Below are positions 3,196 through 63,850 of a DNA stretch of 64,000 nucleotides, in pieces. Origin of the DNA: Druceiella hillmani. Taxonomy: Eukaryota; Arthropoda; Insecta; Lepidoptera; Hepialidae. A program made the position numbers and the translations under genes. Numbering within the stretch: the first letter of the stretch is position 1; every line of letters begins with the position of its first letter. Where the stretch lies: assembly GCA_039881145.1 (NCBI GenBank), contig JAYKKI010000008.1, forward strand, positions 36,727,001-36,791,000, written 5' to 3'. A model generated the notes under the pieces. That model saw nothing but the letters and a program-made list of their open reading frames with translations, ran no database searches and was not told the DNA's origin.

Positions 3196-6109
3196 TTGAC
3201 TGAATTTAGCATTGATACCAACTGTTAGCGGAACCCATTAGTATTCACTACGACAACATTCAAAGCAGATATTAAATATGGACAAGAGATTTTCCCAAAC
3301 TTTGACCACAATTAGATTCAGTATGATGCTAGATGCAAAATTGAGCGATGTCTGATTATTGTCCAAAGAAACGGAACGAAAGAGAGGTAAAAGCTTAAAA
3401 ATTACGTACTTTGGAAATATCCTACCGCAAATATCTATCATCATCATATATATTAATATGCTAAGGTTAAGATGTTACTCTCCCTTTTTAGAAAAAACCT
3501 CACAACTAATCCACATAAATTATATATCATTTTATAGATAAATGCTTGCTCTACCGGCATCCACAACTAAAAAATTTATTATTGCTATTGTTTTTGCAAA
3601 TTAATTAATTATTAAAATTATATACACAAAACAGCAATGCTGCCATCTAACGGCTCAACGTCAATATGATTGACGGTCGGTAAATTTTTTGTTTAATTTC
3701 AAATCCACTCACGTATAAATAAAGTGGCGCTTTAGCTCAATGCTTTTGATACTTGCGCCTCTATATGTCAATTTTAGTAAAATATTTGTTTGATCTGTCA
3801 TGTGAGCTTCATAATGGAATAAATAATGCGAAGACTTCGCACGGGTCACGCTAGTATATATTAAAACAATTAAAAAAAATTTCTTTTTACCCTCATTGGA
3901 ATGCTAAAAGCTGCAATGGAATACTATAAATCGATATTTTTTATTGTGCACATTTTATTTTATTTATTATTTGTTGTTCAGTTGCTTGAATAGTTTTTTA
4001 AAAACCATTCGCAAACAATCGCAGGAACTTATAATTTTTCATCACTCAAAATAATTAATACACTCGTCAAAAAGGTTCAATGTTATTTGCCCATAATTTT
4101 TGGGATTAGTTAGTATGTAATATATATATTAATATATAATTAGATAAAATGTATATTTAGTTAACATGTCAATGATTTTCATTTTACCATTATTTATGTC
4201 ACAAATAAGGCTTAAATATTTTAACTGCAAATTATTAATATTTTCTGGAATAAAATAATTATTATCTGGAATAAAATAAAATTACTTTAAAATTTAGTAT
4301 AGTAGCTGCCTAAACTATTTTTTCTTATGAATTTGAATAACTTCAATTACGTTAAACATAAAGAGTCGTACACAAACAAACATGCCATTTGATTGAATGA
4401 AAATGTTTGTTAAAGTTTCTTAAGTATTTATATGCGAGTGCTACAGGGATCAATCTACTCTGTACAAATGCATAATTTTGAAAATAGTTTTTTACAATAT
4501 ATCTAGAAAACGTATTAGTTATTACTCATTATGTATTTTAATGTACTTATTAATATAATTTACGCCTTATTTTTTAACTAAAAACAAGGCATAAGTCATA
4601 TAACTTACCCCTAAATCTATTAATAGATCGCATAAAGGCCCCCTTGATATAATAATACGAGTAACGATTAGATGGATACCCCTATTTAATTTTTTATCTT
4701 GAAAAACACCATTAAGTTCAATGTCTCGCCGAAATCAAAGGACCTTTCCGTTTGGTTAATAAAGTTATATTATATTCATGTCAAAATAACCTTCACGGCG
4801 TTATTTATTAATTTACTCGCTTCTAATTTTTTCACAGTGGATCTTTAAATTAAAAAAAAACATTAAATATATATGTAATATACCATTATAAGTACATTTT
4901 TGTGGCAAGCAACACATGATTGTAAGGAGTATAATTATCGGAACGTAAATGAACATGGGAAAGGAGCTTTATTTAAAGGAGTTTTTATTTAAAATAAATA
5001 TTTTTAAAATTGTTTAGGATTTCCAGTTGTCCATTTATTTTAATTTTTCTCGAGAAGGTAAAAAGAAAAAAAACTGTCAAGCGCTAGTAGAACTCACACT
5101 ACGAGGGTTCCGTATATATTTAGGAATTTATAAACTTTTAAGGGTATATAACCTTAACAGTTTATAACTTCCTCGAATCGATTTACAAATAATAATTTTT
5201 CACAACTTAAATACATTGCCCACTATAATTTTCACATGCGTAAAAACAAACTAATTATCAAGAAATATAATTCCACACGAACAGTTGTTTCTTTTAGATT
5301 TTTTCCTTTACTTTATTGTATCTGCCATACAATTTCCCATTATGCTGACTTTCAATCAACAAGGTCGAACGGAAATACCATATAGGCTTGATGATCAGTG
5401 CGTAAGACTATTATTGGAACAAAAAATATACGTTTTAAAGGACCATATCTTTTTGTTGCATGAAACAAAAAACTTGATTTTAATCAACGTAAGGCTATAG
5501 GCTACAGTTCATGAGATTAGGATACTTCAACTTGATATCTTAAGCCGTTTCTAAGAAAAAGGGTTTGAACAGAGAGTCGAACAGATGGAGGAACAGCCAA
5601 GTAATTCTACCCGTTTTATCATTTTGAATGACAGAACCCTAAAAATGAAAAAATAATAATTTCTATTAAATAATTGTGTTAAAAAGAAATATTTGTTTGT
5701 TCCAATAATTTTCTGTACACATGTTTGAAAAATGTTTCCTGTCTCTATTGTTTTGCATAGTTTTAAAAAATCGGATTTTTGCAGATATATTTTACTTCTG
5801 TCAATTTCTTTCTGACATTCGAAAAATATGTGTAAATTGGTGTTTATATTATAAGTTCTATTATTGATTTTTGATTAGACAAGTAAATTGAACCTAATTA
5901 TAAAACCAAATATTATTAATTTGTCATTGTTACAGAAAATGTATTTAATGTAAATTTTATCAAATTAGGCTTATTAAATCATAATTGTAACTGTATTTAA
6001 ACATGGTGATATACCTCCAAATATTTCGTCAATTTCGTCACCACAACAACTTAAGCACACATGCATGCAAAACCGAAATTAATATACATTGTGTCCAATT
6101 TCTTATTAG

Positions 6110-6340
6110 GGCATAAAACCTTGCACACCGGTAGCGTCGACGCTAGGGTCAAAACGTCACCACGCATCGAACAAGATATTACCGAACTTGCTTATTTATA
6201 AAAGCGGTGACATGATAAGTTGCAGGCGGCGAAACTCCCTGCGGACATTTTACACTCGAAGATAGGAAAGAAGATAACGCATGCCCGCGTTAGTGGAGTA
6301 TATATTTCATAATAGTCGTAAACCATCTATGGTTTAATAT
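6110..6340. other. Conserved block in A, B, D and E
   Basis: 'gtagcgtcgacgcta', 'cgaacttgcttattta', 'gcaggcggcgaaactc' and 'cgttagtgga...tcgtaaaccatctatgg' recur at 18070-18265, 43125-43650 (split by retroposon copy 7) and 58610-58830. It is among the best-preserved parts of the unit and GC-richer than average. A TATAAAAG string (6197-6204) exists only in A, so I do not call a promoter. Confidence 0.45.
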
Positions 6341-7194
6341 ATGGAGTGAAATAAATTTACTTATCTGCACTTAAGTCATGTCTAATTAACAGAGAAGGCA
6401 TTTTGTATATAAGATATTCAATAAGTATGTCAGGGTTTACATTGTGTGACAAGCTTTTTCTCAATATCTTCTAAAACTGAAAAAAACCCTCTAGTTGTAC
6501 ATCAGATATTTTAGGACGAAATAATGACGTTTTGATATCTTGTAAAAGAATATTATAATATTGTCACACAAAATATTTTAAGTCATTAATTGCATCGGTA
6601 GACTTCCAATCTTATAATTTTGAGAATAGTCACGTCGTGTAGCTTTCTTTAAGTATACATATTCCAAGGACAAAAAAATATTTTATTAATAACAATTTCA
6701 TTGAGGTAACTTAATATTTTACTAAAAAAGTTTGCTTATGTGTATAACAAGTTCCCTTCTAATTGTGAAACATCTGGATTACAAAAATTAAAAAGTTATG
6801 TTCGAAAAATGCGTTTTAAAACTTATTTGAATAACATTGGAAACAGCAACAGACAAATTTTGATACAATTTTCAACAAATTCTTTTACATTATCTTTATC
6901 ATTTTTTAACATTTTTATTTTCCGGTTACCATATTAATTTGCAATTCAATTGAAATATCAAACTAATATGAATGGTACGTATAATTTAGTAAATTGTAAA
7001 ATGACTCAACTCAAGATTTTGAGTTGTGGTACCACTGTACATTTTTCAATAGGTTTTAGGGTAAAATTCGACTAACAGTTGAAAATGATGATTTATATCT
7101 TAATTATTAAATTTACTAAATGAAAACTTTCTTTGCAATATTATTAATTTATTTATTTGCGTACTTCAATGTATACAATTAATATATATGGTAG

Positions 7195-9635: not shown

Positions 9636-9796
9636 ATTGAATATATTTGAAGTTAATTTTGTAGAAATTCATTATTCACAATTAAATGAAACTACGTGAT
9701 GTAGTATTATTCCTACTTTTTTTAAATTCTTTACCACAACCTAGGTTTCGTTGTATGACAACATCTTCAGGTGGGCAATTAGCAAAGACCTTTGAA
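9636..9796 (-). mobile_element. Palindromic hammerhead retroposon, one arm (copy 1)
   Basis: One arm of the palindromic family, read from its constant end at the left ('attgaatata') to a truncated right end near 9796. Carries the outer arm with the quasi-palindrome 'actacgtgatgtagt' and the hammerhead-like motif at 9734-9775 on the minus strand. Copy E lacks it at the equivalent place (about 61060-61150), but the flanks have changed too much to define a target-site duplication. Confidence 0.6.
9734..9775 (-). ncRNA. Hammerhead ribozyme-like motif
   Basis: On the minus strand: helix I strand CCAC, core CUGAAGA, one extra U, stem II GUUGU-CAU-ACAAC, GAAA, helix III ACC-UA-GGU, then U at position 17 and GUGG closing helix I. 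All invariant core positions are met and N7 is A. U at the cleavage position is allowed but usually slower than C. Known: type-I hammerheads of this minimal form occur in Penelope-like elements. Inferred: this copy may still fold. Activity is untested. Confidence 0.5.
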
Positions 9797-11693: not shown

Positions 11694-11916
11694 CTAAGTG
11701 GAGTCGTTCGGTTGAGCCCTTTTGACTGTCTCGCTTAAAATAATTAATATGTCGAAGAAAGAAAATACTGGCGTATACTTCGTGAGTTTAATAATAACGA
11801 AAACTATTGGGGAAGTTACGGATATTGTCAAAATAGAAAACCTCACCGAGAGATACTGGCTAGAGCAAACTGCACAAAGCAAGCCATTTGCAGTCAGAAC
11901 AATTCTCAAATATTGA
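11694..11916 (+). other. Conserved block with short open frames
   Basis: Best-conserved part of the unit. Counterparts: 31611-31835 (B), 52635-52855 (D) and, inverted, 62985-63215 (E). In A a frame reads KENTGVYFVSLIITKTIGEV and later ERYWLEQTAQSKPFAVRTI. In E (- strand) the equivalent frame keeps NTGVYFMSLIVTKTIGEV and the same C-terminal string. In B and D the frame is shifted and stopped. The frame has no ATG before an internal Met and no recognisable domain. Opposite-strand frames in the same place (11694-11909 -, 62902-63210 +) are equally open, which argues that nucleotide identity rather than protein selection explains it. Confidence 0.35.
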
Positions 11917-13139
11917 ATGATGAAAGTCCATTTATATATTTTTTAAAAGGCTATAACTAAGTATCAGTTTGGATATTTGAACAAATAATGGCTGAACATC
12001 AAATGAGATGATATATTGCTTTTCAGTGTTATATTATCTTTTTATATTACATTTTCAACGGCAATATATCCAAATGAAAATTTTTCAAATAACTCAATTT
12101 AGTTATTGTTGAGATTCCAATATCAATTCATTAATAGAAAGAAAAAGTTATGAGTTGACTTTCAGAAGCAACTTCTAAGAATTTATTTTGTTGAATAGAA
12201 GAACAAAAATTACCACCATTAATTTGTACAATAAGTCTGTACTTTATTATCTGGTCATTTCTGTTTACAGACCAGAGCAATACAAAAATTAATATCACTC
12301 AATTTAATCGTCATAGTTTGTACATACAACAATAAAAAATTATTGATTTGGCTCAATATAATTAATAAAAATCTATTGTTAGAAAAAAATCCTAATAATT
12401 TAAAACTTTATATAACAAATAATCTAGAAAAGCGATGTCAAATATTTTTTTATCTGTAAATGGTTTATTAATGGCTACGGACCTTATATAATAATTTAGC
12501 TAAAGTAATAGGTTTTACCATATTGTAACTTTTCCATAAAGTTTGAAATAACGAGGCTAACTCATAAAGTTAAAAGATTAAATCATAAAGTTATAAACTT
12601 TAGAGATAAATTAGGTTTATGGAAAAAAGTAGACAACAGAAATTTCAAAGTCCGTAATATTGTTATTATACTAAAGTAGCATCTCGACTCTCAAGAAAAG
12701 ATCTCGGCCATTGATCATGGTTCCAATACACAGGTGGATGAAACAGTATATGTTGTATATACTATAAAGACACTACATCTCATTTAAACTTTTTTTTAAA
12801 AGCTCTATGTAATTCAGCAGATAGCGTTGAGAAGAATCTACAGCAAAACAGTTTCTTATAATAGATTAACACATACATTTATATAAACTTAAAATAAATA
12901 TTATATAAACTTGCTTATCAAAGACGAGCAGAGGTATGTTTATATCAAAGCCTCATATGTACACAAATACTTAATATTAGATATAAGCAGAATTAGCGAA
13001 GAGTTGTATGCCACTAGTTTCAGAACAAGTATTGCCAGCAATTATCTCGTCTCACCAGTGAGGTTCAATTTGCGTATGAAACTTACGTGTAATTGCTCAA
13101 GCACAAGGAAACACAGAGAATCAGTTACTTAAAATATAG

Positions 13140-15646: not shown

Positions 15647-15818
15647 AATATTGAAAAAATTTGGCGTTAATTTTGTAGAAATTTATTTAATTTAATTTTT
15701 CACAACTAAATGAAACTACGTAATGTAGCAATTTGTAAAGATAAGACAAATTGTAAAGATTCCAATAAAGTAGAAATAATACTACATCACGTAGTTTCAT
15801 TTAGTTATGAAAAATTAA
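15647..15818 (-). mobile_element. Palindromic retroposon, internally deleted (copy 3)
   Basis: Two outer arms facing each other with the centre missing, so no hammerhead is left. Constant end on the left ('ttggcgttaa'). Flanked by near-identical 12-bp repeats at 15635-15646 and 15819-15830 (ACAAAGTTTACA / ACAAAGTTTTCA). The same insertion is in copy D at 40448-40619, so it predates the B/D split. Confidence 0.7.
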
Positions 15819-16453
15819 ACAAAGTTTTCATTGTCTGTTTATGTACAACTCTTTACTATTGGTGTAGTTGAAGTTCTTAAAATTCATAGAAAAAGTACAA
15901 AGATATCTATGTTAAATGTTAATTTAAATTCATTCCTCACTAATGTGTTCAAATTAGGAATCAGGAATCAGTTGTTGGTAATTAGTCAAGCTACGTCGTA
16001 GAAGTAGTCAAGCTACGTCGTACGTAGAAATATCAAAATATTATAACAAAAAATCGGGTAGGAACGCTTTTCGAATTTTTTTTACGTTGAACTCAAAAGA
16101 TTTGCAAATATGTTCACCACAACAGATACCATTTATTTCGGAAAATAATGGCTATAAAATATTATTCTAATAAATTCACCGAATTATCTATTTTATACCA
16201 AATTCAATAACAGGTCGCGTCAAGGCCGTTTTGTTATAGTAATACGAGCAAGGAGTAGGTATGTACCTTTATTTCATTTCAATGATAAAAACATCGTTAA
16301 GTCCACGGTCCCTTCGAGATCAAAGAGCCTTTCTCGTTCGGCTAATAAATTTATATTATATTCATGTCAAAATAACAGTCATGGAGTTATTTATTAATTT
16401 GCTCGTTTGCAATTTTTTTTCGTAGTGGACGCTTAATTATAAAAAAAATCATT

Positions 16454-16870
16454 TTTATTCATAACCTAATGAAACTACGTGATATAATATTATTTCTACT
16501 TTATTTAAATTAACCATAATTAACACAGATCTAAATATTATACAAAACAATAGCGGATGTGGGGTTTGAGTGGGTTTTCCCAATTTTTAAGTTAATAGTT
16601 TTTATTATATTTTTTAAAGTTACACAATGTACTATGCAGTACATTGTATATTTTATAGCAACTTAAATTTTTAAATGCTGTTGGGTATTTCTATGAGTTA
16701 ATCTCATCAAATTGCCCTCCTGAAAATATTATCACACGACGAAACCTAGGACGTGGCTATTAATTTAAATAAAATAGATATAATACTACATCACGCAGTT
16801 TCATTTAATTATGAATTAAAATTAGGTGAAAATGAATTTCTACAAAATTAACGACAAATATATTCAATAT
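16454..16870 (+). mobile_element. Palindromic hammerhead retroposon (copy 4)
   Basis: A 417-bp palindrome centred near 16635 (TACAATGTACT-atgc-AGTACATTGTA). The right arm holds a decayed hammerhead motif at about 16712-16757 (core CUGAAAA, U16.1 lost) and ends with the constant end. Flanked by AAAAAATCATT at 16443-16453 and 16871-16881. Copies A (near 4855) and E (near 53870) have one such sequence without the insert. Shared with D 41094-41653. Confidence 0.7.
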
Positions 16871-18501
16871 AAAAAATCATTAAATATAAATAAAATATCA
16901 TTACAAGAACGTTTTGGTAGTAAGTAAAACTTGGTTTTTTCAATTTAATTTGTTTTTCTCAAGGAGGCAAAAAGAATCTAACATGCACAATATGAACTCG
17001 CGTTATGAGGTTTCCATGCACATTAAGGCATATAAAAACATTTAAGATAAACGTATGTATATTGCCTAGTATAATTTTCACAGGCGTAAAACCAAGTTTT
17101 TATAAAAAAGTATAATTCCACCTAGAATAAGTTTTGGATTTTTCCCTTTATTTGTGCCATAAGACCGCTCATTATGCCGAATTTTAATTAACAAAGTCAC
17201 CCTAAAATACATTATGATTTTTATCAATAATACTATTGTGTGAACAAAAAAAATATGCTTTAAAGGGCTATATTTTTCCATTGCATGAATCTAAAATATG
17301 GAATATTTTAATGTAAGGCTGTAAACCTAAATATAAGATATAACGATATTTAAAGTTGATATCTCAAGCCGTTTCTAAGAAAAAGGGCTTGAACCTGCTG
17401 ACTGATGGAACAACCAAGTCAATAAGGATCCGTTTTATCATTTTGAGCGACGGACCTCCAACTAGGAAAAAAAATATTTTCTATTAAATAACTGTGTCAA
17501 TAATAATTTTCTGTTTATTTCAGGGAAAATTTATGTGTAGATGCTGGAAAAATCTTTCGTATTTTTAATTTATATTCATATATTAAAAATAATATTTTGC
17601 AGTTATAAAAAATATGCCTAAATTGGTGTTGATAGTATAAGTAATACTATTGATTTTGGGTTGGATAATTAAAAGTGAACCTAATTAATGAGGTAATTGC
17701 TGCTTATGAAACGAAATTTGTGTTTAACATTGTTACACAAAATGGATTTAATGTAAGTTATATTAAATCACGCTTATTAAATCATAAATTAAACTGTGTT
17801 CAAAGATATAAATATATACGTTTACTAATTTTATAAGAGTAATTTTATGGGTATACTAATAAACACTAGAAATAATCTCACGTTTTTTCATTATATTCCG
17901 TTGTTCTTAACACAGCACAACCCAATATTCGTTTCGTTTCGACCTACCTTCAAACGTTTCGTCAGCTGGGCCATTACCGCAACAACTTGAGCACACATGC
18001 ACGCAAAACCGTAATTAATATAAGTTGCTTCGAATTCCAAATAACGGATACCAACCCTTCCTTATACATCGATAGCGTCGACGCTATAACCGAAACGACG
18101 CGTCAAATAAGACGTTGCCGAACTTGCTTATTTACAAAATCGGTGATGATAAAGTCTGCAGGCAATGAAACTCGGTACGGGTAATTTAAACTCGAAAATG
18201 TTAGAGAATGCGCATTCCGACGTTAGTAGATTACATCTTTCATGGCAATCGTAAATCATCTATGATTCAATACATGAAGCGCAATAAAAGTACTTATATG
18301 CACTTAAGTTATGAAATTTACCGATAAAGCATTATTCATAAAAAGATTTCAATAACTTTGTTTCACTTTATGTGCTGTGATAAGTTTTTTCTCAATTTTT
18401 CCTAAAACTGAAAAAAAACCTCTCTGATTGACGTATAGATTTTTACGTTTATTGACGTATCAGATATTTCGCCATGAAATATCTATTACGTTAGTAAACG
18501 T

Positions 18502-23121: not shown

Positions 23122-25387
23122 CTGGAAGAAAAAATAAATAATCGTCTCATTTTGAATCGTTTGTTGAGTTTTCATTATATTCTTCTGCGATATTCAATTA
23201 GTTTTATGTCTCAAATCATTATTCTCTTGTTAATAAAAATATTTTAATGTAGTAAATGGCACAAGTGATTATATCACTAAAATTAGCTTCTTTTATTCAA
23301 ACGTTTAAAACAACAGAATTAATTTTGCAACAAAAATTTAAAATATTGTTATACAATTTCACAATTTGTTCATACATTTTTTTATTTTTAATTTTGTATT
23401 TATATTCGTTTTACTTTTTCTTCTTTGGTCTGCTCTTGATTTTTATTGTATTTGTAAGGTGAAAACCCATCAGAAGTGAGTAAAACTAGTGCACTGATGA
23501 ATCTTTTCATTTTTCTTTTAACACTTTTTCTTAACGATTTTCATTTACTAACCTGAAAGTAAAATTCCAATCTATTCATCTTTTTTCTGTCTGAAATTCG
23601 TATATGAAACTTTATTAATTTTTATATTTATTTCATCAACTAAAAATAAAACTTTAATTTTCTTCTTTTTAATAAATATGGTAATGCCATTTCAAATATA
23701 TCTTTTTATTTTTGAAACCTTGATCTTCTGAGGCCAACGACAAGTCAATAAAGCAATAATTAACTTATATAGCCCATTTATATTTGTACGACAATAGAAC
23801 AACTAACAAAAAGTAATATAACAACTGTTAAATAATACTTAATGTTGGTACGTTGCCAAGACAGTTTTGGCATTAAGGGTTTGAAACTAAATAAATTATA
23901 TTTAATAATGTATCCAAATTATTAATTGATTTCATGGAGATATATTGTTGAGCTATAAGCTCTCCCTCGGATCAAGATTAAGAAAAAGATATATCTCAAT
24001 TTCCTTGCCATAATCTTGGTAAACGTATTAGAATGAAGTATAAATATTACAAGATGGCATTATGTAATTCAAGCCTTGCTTTTATTACATACTTCACTGA
24101 ATGTAACTTTTGTTCGAAAAAGTATAATAAACATTTTGCTAATTTAAAATCAAATCAACGTCTAATTAAACGTATCTTAACCAAAATTTTGTGTGTTAGT
24201 AGAATAACTCAGTAGAATTTTCATACTTATGTGCTTATTTTCTTTAAATGTAGAGATATTATGTCACATATTCCATTATCTTAGTGTGCATTAGTATAAA
24301 GGTAACTCAGAGGCTAGTTTCACGTTCAGGGCGCCCAGGTAAAACTACATCTTCTAAATCCGAATTATACTGACATTCTCCAGTTTCATACTGCAGTCAA
24401 CTGCTCGTCCACCTGATCGCAGTCGCACCAAACTGTTATCAATTTACGTCGAGTGAAAGTAAACTTGGAGATATGTGCTTTTTTATAACTTTATTATTTT
24501 GGATATAGTTAACTCTTGAATACTTTACCACAAGAAATGTTTTCCCCACTCACAATAATTTGTTACGAAGAGCCACGGAGTATTTACCAAGTGGAGAGCG
24601 CTAGACGCTCACGCTTTTTCTAAGAATCACAACAAAGTATATATTATCGATATCGATAAAAAATATTAATTTTCTTCTCCGATTTTTTTATTTCAAGGAA
24701 TTAAATATTAAATAAAATGTTCTAAATTAAGACAATCTTAATCACTTAATATAATATTAGTATAAATATACCAATATTGTATACAAAAATAACTACTGAT
24801 AAAAAAACTAATTAACTTGGAATATATTTTCCGTATATAGTCCATTGGATTTTGATTATTTTTTATGATAAATGTCATTCGATCATCTACGTATTTTTAA
24901 CAACACATTATGCTAAATCGACTAAATGATTTGTCGACTCTGTGTCAAACTGGTGAAAATTTATTTCTCGAAAAATATCGTAACCGACAAAAGGTTCCAA
25001 AACAGCCGGTACAAAATAATCTGAATTATATTTCAATTTAATTGCTTTGTCACCACAATGAAACACAGTCCGTTTGGTGTAAATTTCATAACGACGACAT
25101 ATTTCCTTAACAGTAGAAAATGGATACATCAATTCGTTCCGGACATCTTTATCCTTTGCTAAGGTTTTTTCATTGACGTTGCCTATCAGTGTTCCAATAC
25201 ATGTTTGACGTTTTAATTTTTCCGTCAACGAGTGGACAACATGACCTGCCATGTACTCCATTACTTTCTCACTAAATTCTGTAAGTATGATGTCTTGAAC
25301 TATTTGTTCTTCGTCGAGGTTTTTGTTTTCGTTTACAATTAGATAGCTCTCATCTTTGGGTCTGGTGGTTATGTTAATATGAATCAA

Positions 25388-25738
25388 TGCGGATGTGCAT
25401 TAGAATAGCGTAATTTGATTTAGAACCACACAATTGCACTGCACGTGTTTTATGTTTGGGCATGGGTAAGTATTTTTTTATATATACTATCGGGTTTTTG
25501 TTGGACCCACCATGGCATCTCACACTGCCATAAAAGTACTACAGAGAGTCTGGGCTTATTTTATGCATTAGTTGATACATAAATTTGTTTCTTGAGTTAA
25601 GAATGAATTCCTGGATCATATATTTGACACTTTCTATGCAAACACAAAACCCTATAAATCCCATACGTCGCGATAAATAAATAAGTAATATGGTTTCTGT
25701 TTTATTAGCTTTAGTTATTTTGGTAGACAATTTCATTA
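25388..25738 (-). pseudogene. P-element transposase, broken central-to-C-terminal junction
   Basis: The 65-codon frame 25539-25736 (GFIGFCVCIESVKYMIQEFI then LNSRNKFMYQLM) is the segment just before the SPDSL...GGSNKNP motif of THAP9-like transposases, which reads across 25490-25545 with stops. It links the core to the C-terminal frame 24908-25387. Listed to show that the stretch is degraded coding sequence and not a separate gene. Confidence 0.7.
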
Positions 25739-40447: not shown

Positions 40448-40619
40448 AATATTGAATAAATTTGGCATTAATTTTATAGAAATTCATTATAATTTAATTT
40501 TTCACAACCAAATGAAACGACGTGATGTAGCAATTTGCATAGATTGGCTAATTTGTAAAGATTCAAATAAAGTAGAAATAATAATACATCACGTAGTTTT
40601 ATTTAGTTGTGAAAAATTA
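40448..40619 (-). mobile_element. Palindromic retroposon, internally deleted (copy 5)
   Basis: Orthologous position to B 15647-15818. Flanked by perfect 13-bp repeats AACAAAGTTTTCA at 40435-40447 and 40620-40632. Outer arms only, no hammerhead core. Open frame 40452-40655 (+) simply reads through it and is not a gene. Confidence 0.7.
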
Positions 40620-41093
40620 AACAAAGTTTTCATTCATTCAGTTGTTGACAATTAGTCAAGCTACGTCATTTACCGTAGAAATTTCAATATTCTTCCTTTA
40701 TTATGACAAAAATCGGGTAGAGACGCTTTTTCAATTATTTTAATTATATTCACTTTAATAGATGCAATTTATTTCAAAGAATAATGACTACAAAATTTAT
40801 TATTCTAATTAACTCACCGAACTATCTATTTTACCTCAAATCCATTAACAGGTGGCATCAAGGCTCTCTTGGTATAATAACACGAGCAAGGAATAGGTAT
40901 GTACCTTTACTTAATTTTTAATGATAAAAACACTATTAAGTCCACGGTCCCTTCGAGATCAAAGAGACTTTCTCGTTTGCCTAATAAAGTTATATTAATT
41001 CATATCAAAATAACCGTCATGGTGTTATTTATTAATTTGCTCGCTTACAATTTTTTTTCGCAGTGGACGCTTTATTATAAAAAAAAAATCATT

Positions 41094-41653
41094 TTTACTC
41101 ACAACTTAATGAAACTACGTGATTTAGTAATTTAATAAAATTACGTGATGTATTATTATATCTACTTTATTTAAATTATTAATCACGACCTAAGTTTCGA
41201 TGTATGACAACATCTTCAGATTGGCAATTTGAAGACATTGACTCGTGGAAACTTCCGACAGATTCAAATATTATACAAAACAATAGCGTATATGGTGTTT
41301 GAGTGAGTTTTCGAAATTTTTATGTTAATAGTTTTTATTATATTTTTGAAAGTTATGCTATATACTATGCACTGTGCAGTACGTTGTATGCTGTAACTTA
41401 AAATTGGAAAAGCTCGCTCGAACCCCATTTCCGGTATTGTTTTTTTTACAATATTTAAATGATGTTGGAAGTTTCTACGAGTTAATCTCTTCAAATTGCC
41501 CACCGGAAGTTTTTGTCATACAACGAAACTTAGGACGTGGTAATTAATTTAAATAAAGTAGATATAACACCACATCAAGTAGTTTCATTTATTTATGAAT
41601 TAAAATTAAGTGAAAATGAATTTCTACATAATTAACGATAAATATATTCAATA
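41094..41653 (+). mobile_element. Palindromic hammerhead retroposon, longest copy (copy 6)
   Basis: A 560-bp palindrome, the fullest copy in the window. Its centre is ACTG-TG-CAGT at 41371-41380, with arms of about 280 bp. Both arms keep a decayed hammerhead motif: 41183-41227 on minus (core CUGAAGA kept, stem II mismatched) and 41500-41540 on plus (CUGA changed to CGGA). The central part, absent from the short copies, is itself arm sequence. The left flank AAAAAATCATT (41083-41093) is intact; the right one has lost a base. The open frame 41264-41503 (-) lies in the centre and has no recognisable domain. Confidence 0.7.
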
Positions 41654-42041
41654 TAAAAAAAATTAAATATACGTAATATATCATTACATTTGTAGTAAGC
41701 AAGACTTGCATTTTATCAATTTAAATTTTAAAACATAAATAAAAATGTGAAACGACCTTTTTATTAAATATTAAGATTCACATTGACAATTGGTGAGCAA
41801 ATTCGACGGTTCATTTCATTTGTTTTTTTTTCGAGAAAACAAAAAGAATCTATCATGCACAAGTACTATGAATGTGCTATGAGGTTTGAATGCATATGAA
41901 GGTAATTAAAAACCTTTAAGAGTACATTATATTTCTAACTAAACTTTACACGAATGTTAATTTTTCACCACTTAAATATATTGCCTAGCATAACTTTCAC
42001 AAGCGTAAAAACGAGGAAAATCTAGGAAAGTGTAATTTCAC

Positions 42042-42910: not shown

Positions 42911-43266
42911 ATCGGTATACTAATAAACGCTGGAAATAATCTCCCTTTGTTCATTATATTCCCTACAGATTAACACAGCACAACCCAATATTCGTTTCGT
43001 CTCGACCTACCTTCAAACGTTTCAGCTGGGCCGTTACCGCAACAACTTGAGCACATATGCATGGAAAACCGTAATTAATATAAGTTGTTTCGAATTCCTA
43101 ATAACGAATACCAAATATTTCACATCGATAGAGTCGACGCTAAAACCGAAACGAAGTTACGCGTCGAATAAGATGTTGCTGAACTTCTTTATTTTCAAAA
43201 CGAGTCATTCACAATTAAATGAAACTACATGATGTAGTATTATTTCTACTATCTTTAATTTCTTTA

Positions 43267-43308
43267 CCACGACCTAGGTTTCGTTGTATTACAACATCTT
43301 CAGGTGGG
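43267..43308 (-). ncRNA. Hammerhead ribozyme-like motif, intact core
   Basis: 42 nt on the minus strand: CCCAC / CUGAAGA / U / GUUGU-AAU-ACAAC / GAAA / CC-UA-GG / U / C / GUGG. Helix I is 4 bp (CCAC with GUGG), stem II is 5 bp with a 3-nt loop, helix III is 3 bp including A15.1-U16.1. The cleavage triplet is GUC. The helix III sequence ACCUAGGU is self-complementary, which would suit a double (dimeric) hammerhead, the arrangement known for ribozymes with very short helix III. The extra U after A9 departs from the strict consensus; an extra nucleotide at that spot is known in at least one viroid hammerhead. Confidence 0.6.
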
Positions 43309-43378
43309 ATATTAGCAAAGATCTTAGAAATATTCTCTCAAAAATCTTATAAAGGATATTAGAAATCTTTGCTAATAT

Positions 43379-43420
43379 CCCACCTGAAGATGTTGTAATA
43401 CAACGAAACCTAGGTCGTGG
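43379..43420 (+). ncRNA. Hammerhead ribozyme-like motif, intact core
   Basis: Same 42-nt sequence as the motif at 43267-43308 but on the plus strand, in the opposite arm of the same element. All core positions, the GUC triplet and the three helices are present. A transcript of the whole element would pair arm to arm, which would compete with ribozyme folding. Transcripts starting at the centre would not. Confidence 0.6.
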
Positions 43421-44155
43421 TAAAGAAATTAAAGATAGTAGAAATAATACTACATCACGTAGTTTTATTTAATTGTGAACAATGAATTTCTACAAAATTA
43501 ACGCCAAATATATTGAATAAAAGGAGTCATGATAAAGTCTGCAGGCAGCGACACTCCGTGCGGGTAATTTGAACTCGAAAATTTTAGAGAATACGCATGC
43601 CGACGTTAGTGGATTATATCTTTCATAGTAGTCGTAAACTATCTATGGTTCAATATATGGAGCAAAATAAAAGTACGTTAACAGAGAAGGCATTTTTCAT
43701 AAATAACAATTTATTAATTTTTTTTTACTTTATGTGCTGTAGCATGTTTTTTTCAATTTCCCTTAAAACTGAAAAAAAATTTCTGTAAGTGTAACGTATC
43801 ACGATGAAATAACGCCGTTACCGTAACACGTTAAAATAAAGTACTACATGATGAAATAACACCGTTACCGTAATAAGTTAAAATATAGTAGTATTAACGT
43901 GGAAAACATTTGAAGTCATTATTTTTATTGGTGTAGTGCTACTTACGAATTTAGAAATAGTCACGTCGTATAGCTTTTTTAAGCATTCATATTCTAAGGA
44001 AAAAAAAATTTCCTAATTACAATTTTATTGCAGTAACTCAAAATTTTAGTAAGTAAGCTTACTTGTATTTGTAACTAGTTCTTACCTAATTTTGAGTTAT
44101 TAAAATTGAAGTGTAACAATTTGTATCTTTTTTGTATGTATTTAAATTTTTATTT

Positions 44156-58340: not shown

Positions 58341-59684
58341 TATATGTGTGTGTGCGTGCGTATGTTTTTTTCATTTTACAAGAGTAAATGTTATTTCATA
58401 AGTATATTAAGAAACACTGGAAATAATCTCCCTTTGTTAATCGTAATCCGTTTGGATTAACAAAGAACAAGCCAATATTTGATTCGTCCCGACATACATC
58501 CAAACATTTTGTCAACTGTGTCGTCACCAAAACAACTTAAGCATATATGCACGCAAAACCGAAATTAATATAAGTTGTTTTCCTAATCACTGGTGTAAAA
58601 CCTTGAACACCGGTAGCATTGACGCTAGAACTGAAACGTCGCCTGGTGTCGAATAAGATATTGCTGAACTTGTTTATTTAGAGAAGCGGTGACATGATAA
58701 AGTTTGCAGGCGGCGAAACTCCCTGCGGGCATTTTGCACTCGAAGATAGGGGAGAAGAACACGCATGCCGGCGTTAGTGGAGTATATATTTCATAGCAGT
58801 CGTAAACCATCTATGGTTTAATATATGGGGCAAAATAATGTTATTTATTTTCATTTAAGTCATGTCTAATTAACGGACATTTTTGTATATAAAGTATTTA
58901 ACAAGTATGTCAGGATTTACTTGTGTGACAAGCTTTTTTCTCAACATCTTCTAAAACTGAAAAAACCCTCCGATTGTAATACGTCAGTTATTTCTGGACG
59001 AAATAACGACGTTTTCATAACGTGTAAAAGAATATTTTAATATTACCGTACAATACACTTTAAATCATTAAATGCATTGGCAGAATTCCACTTTTGTGAT
59101 TTTAAGAATAGACACGTCGTGTAGCTTTCTTTAAGCACATACATTTCAAGGACAACACAAAATATTTTCTTAATAATACTTTCACTGCAGTACTTTATAT
59201 TTTACTAAATAAGCATACTTACGTATATAATAAGTTCTCAACTTTAACCTCTGAAAATTCTGAATTATTAAATTAAAAAGTAATCATCGAAAAATTTGTT
59301 TTAAAACTTATTGCAATAACATTGGAAAAAAACAAAAAAATTTTCAATAAATTCTTTTGTATTTTCTTTCCTATTTTAAAAAAATTGTATATTCCGGTTG
59401 CCATATTGATATGCAATTTAATTGAAGTATTGAACTGATATGTACAATACGTATAATTTTAGTATATTGTAAAATGACTTAACTCGTGATACGGTTTTGA
59501 GTTTTAAGAAGACCATAGATTTTTAATAGTTTTAGGGTAAAATTCGACCAATAGTCGAAAATGATGAGTTAAATCTTAATTAACTAAATGAAAACTTTAT
59601 TACGAATTAATTTATTTATTACGAATTTATTTAGTTATTTGCGTACTTTAAGGCATACAATTGATATATATCTTACAGCCAGCT

Positions 59685-62805: not shown

Positions 62806-63430
62806 TGAATTAAGTTATTTGAAACATTTTCATTAGGGTATATAGCCGCTGAGAATCCGATATAACATAATACATCACTGAAAAGCAATATATCACATCA
62901 TTTGATGTTCAGCCACTCTTTGTTCAAATATCTAAACTCATACTTAGTTATAGCCTTTCAAAAAATATGTAAATATACTTTCATATTTCAATGCTTGCAA
63001 ATTGTTCTGACTGCAAATGGCTTGCTTTGTGCAGTTTGCTCTAGCCAGTATCTCTCTCTGAAGTTTTCTCTTACCACAAAATCATTAACTTCCCCAATAG
63101 TTTTCGTTACTATTAAACTCATGAAGTATACGCCAGTATTTACTTTTTTCGATATATTAATTATTTTAAGCAACACTGTCCAAACCGCTTATTTGAACGA
63201 CCCCACTTAGGAAACAATTTAGTGTATATTTATTCTTTATGCCGAAAGCGATATTAATGAGACATGTTTGTGTTTATAAAGGTAACTGATATTTTAATTT
63301 TCAAAACTTTTAGCTATATGAGACGTGTATGGACAGGAAAAGAGCTCAAATGAAATAATTAAGTATAAATGTATGTTTCACAAACGGTCCTACTTTATAT
63401 GATAATTAATATTTCAAACCTAAAGTTTCT
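62806..63430 (-). repeat. Inverted segment of the macro-unit in E
   Basis: Reverse complement matches A 11480-12105 over its whole length (for example 'ggcttgctttgtgcagtttg' against A 11870-11890), while the sequence before it (62220-62800) matches A 10950-11240 directly. So this ~0.6-kb piece is flipped in E relative to A, B and D. Confidence 0.75.
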
Positions 63431-63494
63431 CTAATATATATAATTTACAATTCAATCTGTAAAATTTATGGTCCGCAGCTATTATTAAAACATT

Positions 63495-63787
63495 GAATAT
63501 ATTTGGCGTTAATTTTGTAGAAATTCATTATTCACAATTAAATGAAACTACGTGATGTAGTATTACTTCTACTTTCTTTAAGTTCTTTATCACGACCTAG
63601 GTTTTGTTGTATTACAACATCTTCAGGTGGGCTATTAGCAAAGATCTTTGAATCAAAGGGCTAGCAAAGATTCTTGATCTTTGCTAATAGCCCACCTGAA
63701 GATGTAATACAACGAAACCTAGGTCGTGGTAAAAAACTTAAAGAAAGTAGAAATAATACTACATCACGTAGTTTCATTGAGTTGTGG
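63495..63787 (-). mobile_element. Palindromic hammerhead retroposon (copy 8)
   Basis: A 293-bp fold-back element inside perfect 14-bp direct repeats ATTATTAAAACATT (63481-63494 and 63788-63801). The constant end is on the left ('gaatatatttggcg'); the right arm is truncated at 'gagttgtgg'. Arms carry damaged hammerhead motifs: 63590-63631 on minus has G12 changed to A and an eroded helix I; 63691-63729 on plus has lost three bases of stem II. Intact target-site repeats point to a recent insertion. Confidence 0.8.
63691..63729 (+). ncRNA. Hammerhead ribozyme-like motif, stem II shortened
   Basis: Core CUGAAGA, GAAA, ACCUAGGU, C and GUGG are all kept, but GUU is missing from stem II, leaving UGU-AAU-ACA followed by unpaired AC. 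Probably weak or inactive. The partner at 63590-63631 (-) has lost the essential G12. Confidence 0.4.
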
Positions 63788-63850
63788 ATTATTAAAACAT
63801 TTACAGACAAAAGAATATTTAATATCTCTTTTCCTGTCTATAGATTTATT

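Follow-up and report, generated by a model that had tools for sequence, protein, structure and literature searches.

The fold-back element at positions 43209-43518 of the window (the whole stretch of 64,000 nucleotides that was analysed) is, in our reading, a non-coding sequence composed of two inverted copies of a 114-nt retroelement end. Each copy likely goes back to a cDNA of its own, made from the 5' end of the RNA of a Penelope-like element (PLE), and the hammerhead-like motif which each of them carries is predicted to cut after C43416 (43271 on the minus strand) and likely did so in related insertions. We give this reading as a whole a probability of roughly 0.77.

The element is 310 bp long and is built of two inverted 114-nt arms, a 42-nt centre and a 40-nt tail (Table 1). 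Taken in the RNA sense, the arms are identical at 112 of 114 positions, and an inverted-repeat search returned 98% identity over 115 nt; the RNA fold of 43209-43480 has a predicted energy of -189 kcal/mol (z = -31). The tail is one-sided, as only the right arm extends into it. The insertion is flanked by a 12-bp duplication, AAAA[C/G]GAGTCAT, whose copies agree at 11 of 12 positions, and our exact-match duplication script credits the element with the last 7 bp of it only. The original prediction had extended the fold-back to 43523. The fold-back itself was confirmed, but its right end lies at 43518, and the AAAAG of 43519-43523 is part of the target duplication. The host sequence is a repeat family in its own right, with members at window positions 6036-6355, 17939-18293, 43000-43700 and 58487-58838; its copies near 6.2, 18.1 and 58.7 kb are empty sites without the fold-back insertion.

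Table 1. Coordinates of the fold-back element, its parts and other family copies in the window.
Feature	Position	Strand	Basis or remark
Target-site duplication, left copy AAAACGAGTCAT	43197..43208	.	sequence; empty sites
Left arm	43209..43322	- (RNA sense)	untailed end 43209; inner, likely RNA 5', end 43322
Type I hammerhead-like motif, left arm	43267..43307	-	predicted cut between 43271 (C) and 43270 (G)
42-nt centre, junction filler separating the arms	43323..43364	.	sequence
Right arm	43365..43478	+	starts at the fixed base ATCTTTGC, likely RNA 5' end
Type I hammerhead-like motif, right arm	43380..43420	+	predicted cleavage after 43416 (C), before 43417 (G)
AUG that includes A9 and the 'extra U'	43390..43392	+	frame ATG TTG TAA; PLE parallel PMC11167929
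40-nt one-sided tail	43479..43518	+	tail-ended arms of the sample
Target-site duplication, right copy AAAAGGAGTCAT	43519..43530	.	sequence
Second complete fold-back of the family, duplication ATTATTAAAACATT	63492..63789	-	sequence
Solo family arm with tail	9636..9788	-	sequence
Older diverged fold-back, about 265 nt between matched arm parts	41085..41656	+	sequence
Older diverged fold-back, left arm truncated	16433..16880	+	sequence

The 41-nt motifs of the two arms are identical to each other. Measured against the type I hammerhead, with criteria that come partly from the available text of PMC3088659, the motif has the core C3-A9, G12-A14, A15.1-U16.1 and H17 together with three helices, plus one U after A9. 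In the original prediction both motifs were one letter longer (42 nt, 43267-43308 and 43379-43420), but the motifs themselves stood, and their description as core CUGAAGA, inserted U, 5-bp stem II, GAAA, ACCUAGGU and GUC was accurate by sequence. The further motif which it reported as well preserved at 9734-9775 on the minus strand also exists, with GUU in place of the GUC triplet. The window holds 7 matches to the core pattern, far more than the 0.02 that shuffled sequence would give; two of them overlap at 17.9 kb and have, by eye, no stem II.

Covariance-model support, which the original prediction had named as a check, appeared below the cut-off and not above it. With one arm (76 nt) as the query, Rfam matched the full RF00163 model (1-45) at 16.6 bits (E 0.072; gathering cut-off 34), the sole match listed apart from one weaker same-clan match which we omit, and the whole window gave no match at gathering scores. 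Since the score lies under the cut-off, the motif is not assignable to RF00163 and is termed hammerhead-like here; the model weakly backs the hammerhead reading. A search of a longer stretch (451 nt) at E<=10 returned 18 sub-threshold matches, none of them to a hammerhead, and the top ones were to miRNA families and driven by the hairpin. Helix III has a 2-nt loop and 8 self-complementary letters, so that a monomer is unlikely to form it and a dimer would be needed. The hammerhead dimer evaluates at -25.0 kcal/mol versus -37.6 kcal/mol for the best paired fold and is thus not the predicted ground state. Folding also predicts that both motifs would be hidden within the hairpin if the element were transcribed as a whole, and for this reason the pairing of the motifs is likely a by-product of the mode of insertion, not a two-ribozyme device.

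The exact motif was absent from the viral contigs searched. As a separate observation, a broader pattern found hammerhead-like motifs with strong, differing stems II and III in six viral contigs with four distinct sequences (viral loci L001 1135-1187, L002 9052-9104, L003 5953-6005, L004 2397-2448, L005 8896-8948 and L006 1228-1280). They carry a U between A9 and stem II, which the search pattern required. Rfam reported none of the six at gathering scores, and L001 not even at E<=10; as motifs with stronger stems were missed in this way, the silence of Rfam may be weak evidence where the variant with a U after A9 is concerned. From their sequence these motifs are putative ribozymes, and we have not used them as support for our reading of the fold-back. 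The same stretch of the viral contig in L004 also holds two Pistol ribozymes, at 2806-2875 and 3609-3678 (minus).

Eight family copies, whole or partial, lie in the window. By eye, the older fold-backs have flanks in common (15649-15818 with 40450-40620, and 16433-16880 with 41085-41656), so these pairs were probably copied within larger duplications. In the genome (2.586 Gb, 181 contigs) we counted 36,684 exact copies of a 30-nt motif, with none for the reversed control; a 34-nt pattern taken from the arm's 3' part occurs 31,600 times. The motif sample consists of 100 listed places among the 36,684, of which 96 are covered by 88 loci, 87 of them distinct. At these 87 loci the arms form 57 head-to-head pairs (-+), 26 solo arms and 4 complex arrangements, one of which (L066) has the order +-+; there was no simple tail-to-tail pair (+-). 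Position-wise conservation of the arms was dropped as evidence because the loci had been picked by motif. The window also contains two alike open frames, 11697-11942 (minus) and 62866-63207 (plus), which by eye are probably another interspersed repeat, and a 163-aa open frame at 24911-25399 (minus), for which neither a homologue at E<=0.001 nor a Pfam match above the cut-off was found.

Where do the arms begin? We took 100 arms picked by the 3' pattern among the matches listed, and in 61 of them the 5' end lies at reference positions 9-13, with a peak of 45 at position 9 (ATCTTTGC). Copies that read through this fixed base show the pLTR continuing upstream, and a TTTAAA lies about 31 nt upstream of the base in three of the four inspected by eye (L034, L041 and the copy at 41.4 kb of the window; not L022). 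As many as 88 of the 100 arms run past the predicted cut site, which means that most templates were uncut; the same holds at the hammerhead for the templates of both arms of the fold-back at 43209-43518. Reference position 61 corresponds to G43417, the first base after the predicted scissile C43416. There was no pile-up at the cut in the motif-selected sample, with 3 of 58 partner arms within 3 nt of it. In the 3'-pattern sample, two arms start exactly at position 61 and a third does so with one substitution; at L102, L110 and L142 the partner arm likewise starts at the cut and filler lies between the arms.

Numbers sufficient for a peak at the cut site were reached in the junction-anchored sets only. 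The cut-anchored pattern found 69 loci, and in the 50 of them that were listed 57 of 100 arms start at position 61. Both arms do so at 21 of these 50 loci, 20 of the 21 with filler. The 57 include three C19 loci with one arm seemingly at the cut, for which microhomology joins at CCAC are the better account. Because this pattern is blind to later starts, a second one was anchored 5 nt further 3'; it found 116 loci, against 1 for its reversed control. In the 50 loci listed, 34 of 100 arm ends fall exactly at position 61, and the other positions from 56 to 65 have a mean of 4.4, with 3, 4, 2 and 3 ends at 57-60 and 7, 8, 6 and 7 at 62-65. A second subfamily (175 loci, control 4, 49 distinct loci listed) has 30 of 98 ends at position 61 and a mean of 4.2 at the other positions from 56 to 65; a further 12 ends lie at position 65 and 13 at position 66, part of which is simple sequence. 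The first and second junction sets have loci in common, and a few of the listed loci (C19, C62) look like mutual copies. Of four cut-site loci viewed by eye, L172-L174 are flanked by a duplication and have the tail at one end only, and the fourth, L171, has a more complex structure. The minority of arms which start at the cut is likely the genomic footprint of in vivo cleavage, and the peaking of arm ends at this very bond suggests that cleavage at C43416 likely takes place in living cells. The hammerhead reading of the original prediction is supported in so far as its cut 3' of C43416 coincides with a genome-wide pile-up of arm ends. In two subfamilies an 8-nt filler, ACTTTTTA, was seen between cut-site arms (G000:C1:615768 and G000:C3:62947837); a templated origin or a common donor is possible.

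Could the peak instead mean that the folded hammerhead stops the reverse transcriptase, or that a second promoter starts transcription there, the ribozyme itself being inactive? The smaller counts at positions 62-65, like those of the second subfamily at 65-66, are conceivably stops at helix I, and part of the latter may indeed mark where reverse transcription broke off at the folded motif. An inactive ribozyme would also be in line with PAc (Poseidon of Anolis carolinensis), whose hammerhead requires protein for cleavage in vitro, is dispensable for insertion in vitro and leaves no RNA-seq ends at its cut site (PMC11167929). However, a helix I stop is expected near position 65, 3' of GUGG, whereas the main peak stands about 4 nt away at the predicted scissile bond, and this position agrees in two subfamilies. 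We regard such an origin of the peak as unlikely, although transcription may have a second start at exactly this base. Where the cut of the PAc hammerhead is without an RNA-seq trace, the integrated junctions studied here peak at the cut.

The outer ends of the sampled elements fall into two classes, the end of the 114-nt arm and the tail end. Both outer ends could be classified in 52 of the 57 sampled pairs, and 47 of the 52 have one tailed and one untailed end, where 26 would be expected if the ends were independent. Three of the equal-ended pairs are untailed at both ends and two are tailed at both. Viewed by eye, L049 is unequal, L026 is likely unequal with an internal deletion and L074 ends within the tail, so that L061 and L092 remain exceptions; the count was kept at 47/52. 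Exact duplications of at least 7 bp flank 41 of 63 fold-backs versus 2 of 26 solo arms; against these 43, shuffling of the right flanks gave a mean of 7.7 and a maximum of 16 of 90. The commonest length is 12 bp, followed by 13 bp, and these two make up 21 of the 43 duplications found. Directly beyond the tail, no sequence is common to any two of the 86 tailed ends.

These ends bear on self-priming, in which the cDNA would fold back at a palindromic 3' end and copy itself into its mirror image. Such a process has been proposed for the Penelope junctions of Adineta vaga, which contain palindromes (available text of PMC3846280), and GCAAAGATCTTTGC is palindromic as well. At L009, L020, L032 and L044 one full arm is accompanied by a short mirrored inner piece, with no second start end. 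However, self-priming predicts equal outer ends, in conflict with the unequal pairs described above, and many arms are separated by fillers. It is largely refuted for full fold-backs and quite improbable as a general explanation, although the short snap-back pieces may have arisen in this way. A foldback DNA transposon or a MITE with terminal inverted repeats could also be suspected from the long inverted repeats and the target duplications, but matching terminal inverted repeats were not found, the tail stands at one outer end only, the duplications vary in length and are missing from most solo arms, and the inner junctions vary among copies, all of which makes this origin very improbable. 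A microRNA-type hairpin gene has next to no chance, since the Rfam miRNA matches (best MIR5512, E 1.3e-13) all lie below gathering scores (68.1 versus 139 bits for the best), as expected of a long perfect hairpin, and the element is a dispersed repeat with target duplications.

To which kind of retroelement do the arms belong? Neither a reverse transcriptase nor a GIY-YIG domain was found in the 10 window ORFs examined, out of 53 frames of at least 75 codons. As no PLE protein was found while the anatomy matches, we infer from this anatomy that the fold-back is likely a by-product of a Penelope-type element. The head-to-head pairs show the inverted pLTR arrangement of PLEs, the 40-nt tail corresponds to their optional one-sided tail of 30-40 nt, and the 12-bp duplication with its one mismatch, of a length that is among the commonest in the sample, to their short target-site duplication. 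The original prediction knew of no non-coding palindromic family whose two arms each bear a motif facing outward, but Penelope elements have been described that have inverted pLTRs, a tail on one side and short duplications. In A. vaga, the available text of PMC3846280 reports head-to-head inverted pLTRs, duplications of 8-10 bp, a tail of 31 bp that is confined to one inverted pLTR, and non-coding captures between the pLTRs. By the same text, A. vaga pLTRs usually flank an ORF and have a very low copy number, whereas the genome studied here holds tens of thousands of motif copies, 0 of 86 sampled tailed ends run into common sequence, and hammerhead motifs are present; the word hammerhead is absent from the main text of PMC3846280.

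The similarity to PAc extends to the position of the ribozyme. There the hammerhead lies at the start of the ORF, which begins at stem II, 26 bp upstream of the cut, internal start sites of reverse transcription bound a tail of 30-40 bp, and both target strands are cut and extended (PMC11167929). In the fold-back the distance from the A of the AUG (43390) to C43416 is likewise 26 nt. The 'extra U' would be explained if A9-U-G were a start codon with the same spacing, and by this analogy it is likely the U of AUG; in the fold-back copy the frame stops after two codons. Minimal type I hammerheads of PLEs, with their short or missing helix III, are expected to function as dimers (Cervera and De la Pena 2014 and Lunse 2017, as cited in PMC7761336), to which the motif described here corresponds in both respects; it also has a U between A9 and stem II. 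Metazoan retrozymes are, according to the available texts of PMC7229834 and PMC7761336, likewise non-coding retroelements with type I hammerheads, but they consist of units in direct tandem, with hammerheads of the classical type and circular RNAs, whereas the arms here are inverted and the motifs minimal. A retrozyme identity was therefore rejected, as direct tandem repeats bounded by hammerheads were not found. Among the open-licence papers listed in literature searches, none was, by title or abstract opening, a study on genomic junctions at a hammerhead cut.

How might such an insertion be formed? The RNA would begin 15 nt upstream of the hammerhead, where the arm ends peak, with the TTTAAA as a TATA-like element upstream of this start. 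Judging from PLE biochemistry, the PLE protein would cut both target strands with a stagger of about 12-13 nt, and each 3' end would serve as a primer for reverse transcription at an internal site of the RNA, the first at the tail site and the second 40 nt short of it. Nearly all sampled pairs show just this difference, one outer end having the tail and the other lacking it. Each cDNA would then be extended as far as the template's 5' end and be joined to the other with a short filler, and varied fillers are observed between the arms across the sampled loci. Most sampled arms would stem from templates uncut at the hammerhead. In a minority the arm starts with the base that directly follows the predicted cut, and frequently this is so for both arms of an insertion, as would be expected of products of ribozyme-cleaved templates. 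Perhaps the hammerhead is a template-pairing device, in which helix III ACCUAGGU would link two RNAs entering one insertion complex and the dimer would cut both strands. Copying of each linked RNA would proceed from its own side of the staggered cut in the target and from a different start site, and both arms of an insertion would end at the ribozyme cut together. In the set anchored 5 nt 3' of the cut, joint cuts of both arms were observed 9 times versus 5.7 in shuffles (P 0.04), which is a weak excess, and we put this idea forward as tentative and on balance doubtful.

Hammerheads are widespread in PLEs, yet whether and when they cut in vivo had been open, and the available text of PMC7761336 terms the in vivo role of the minimal ones a mystery. 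Since each fold-back preserves in DNA where two templates had their 5' ends, the genome with its tens of thousands of motif copies is a record of which RNAs were cut before insertion. In the sampled part of this record, the templates are mostly uncut and sometimes end at the exact predicted bond. The unequal outer ends argue that the inverted pLTRs arise by priming from both target strands at two sites, and against self-priming.
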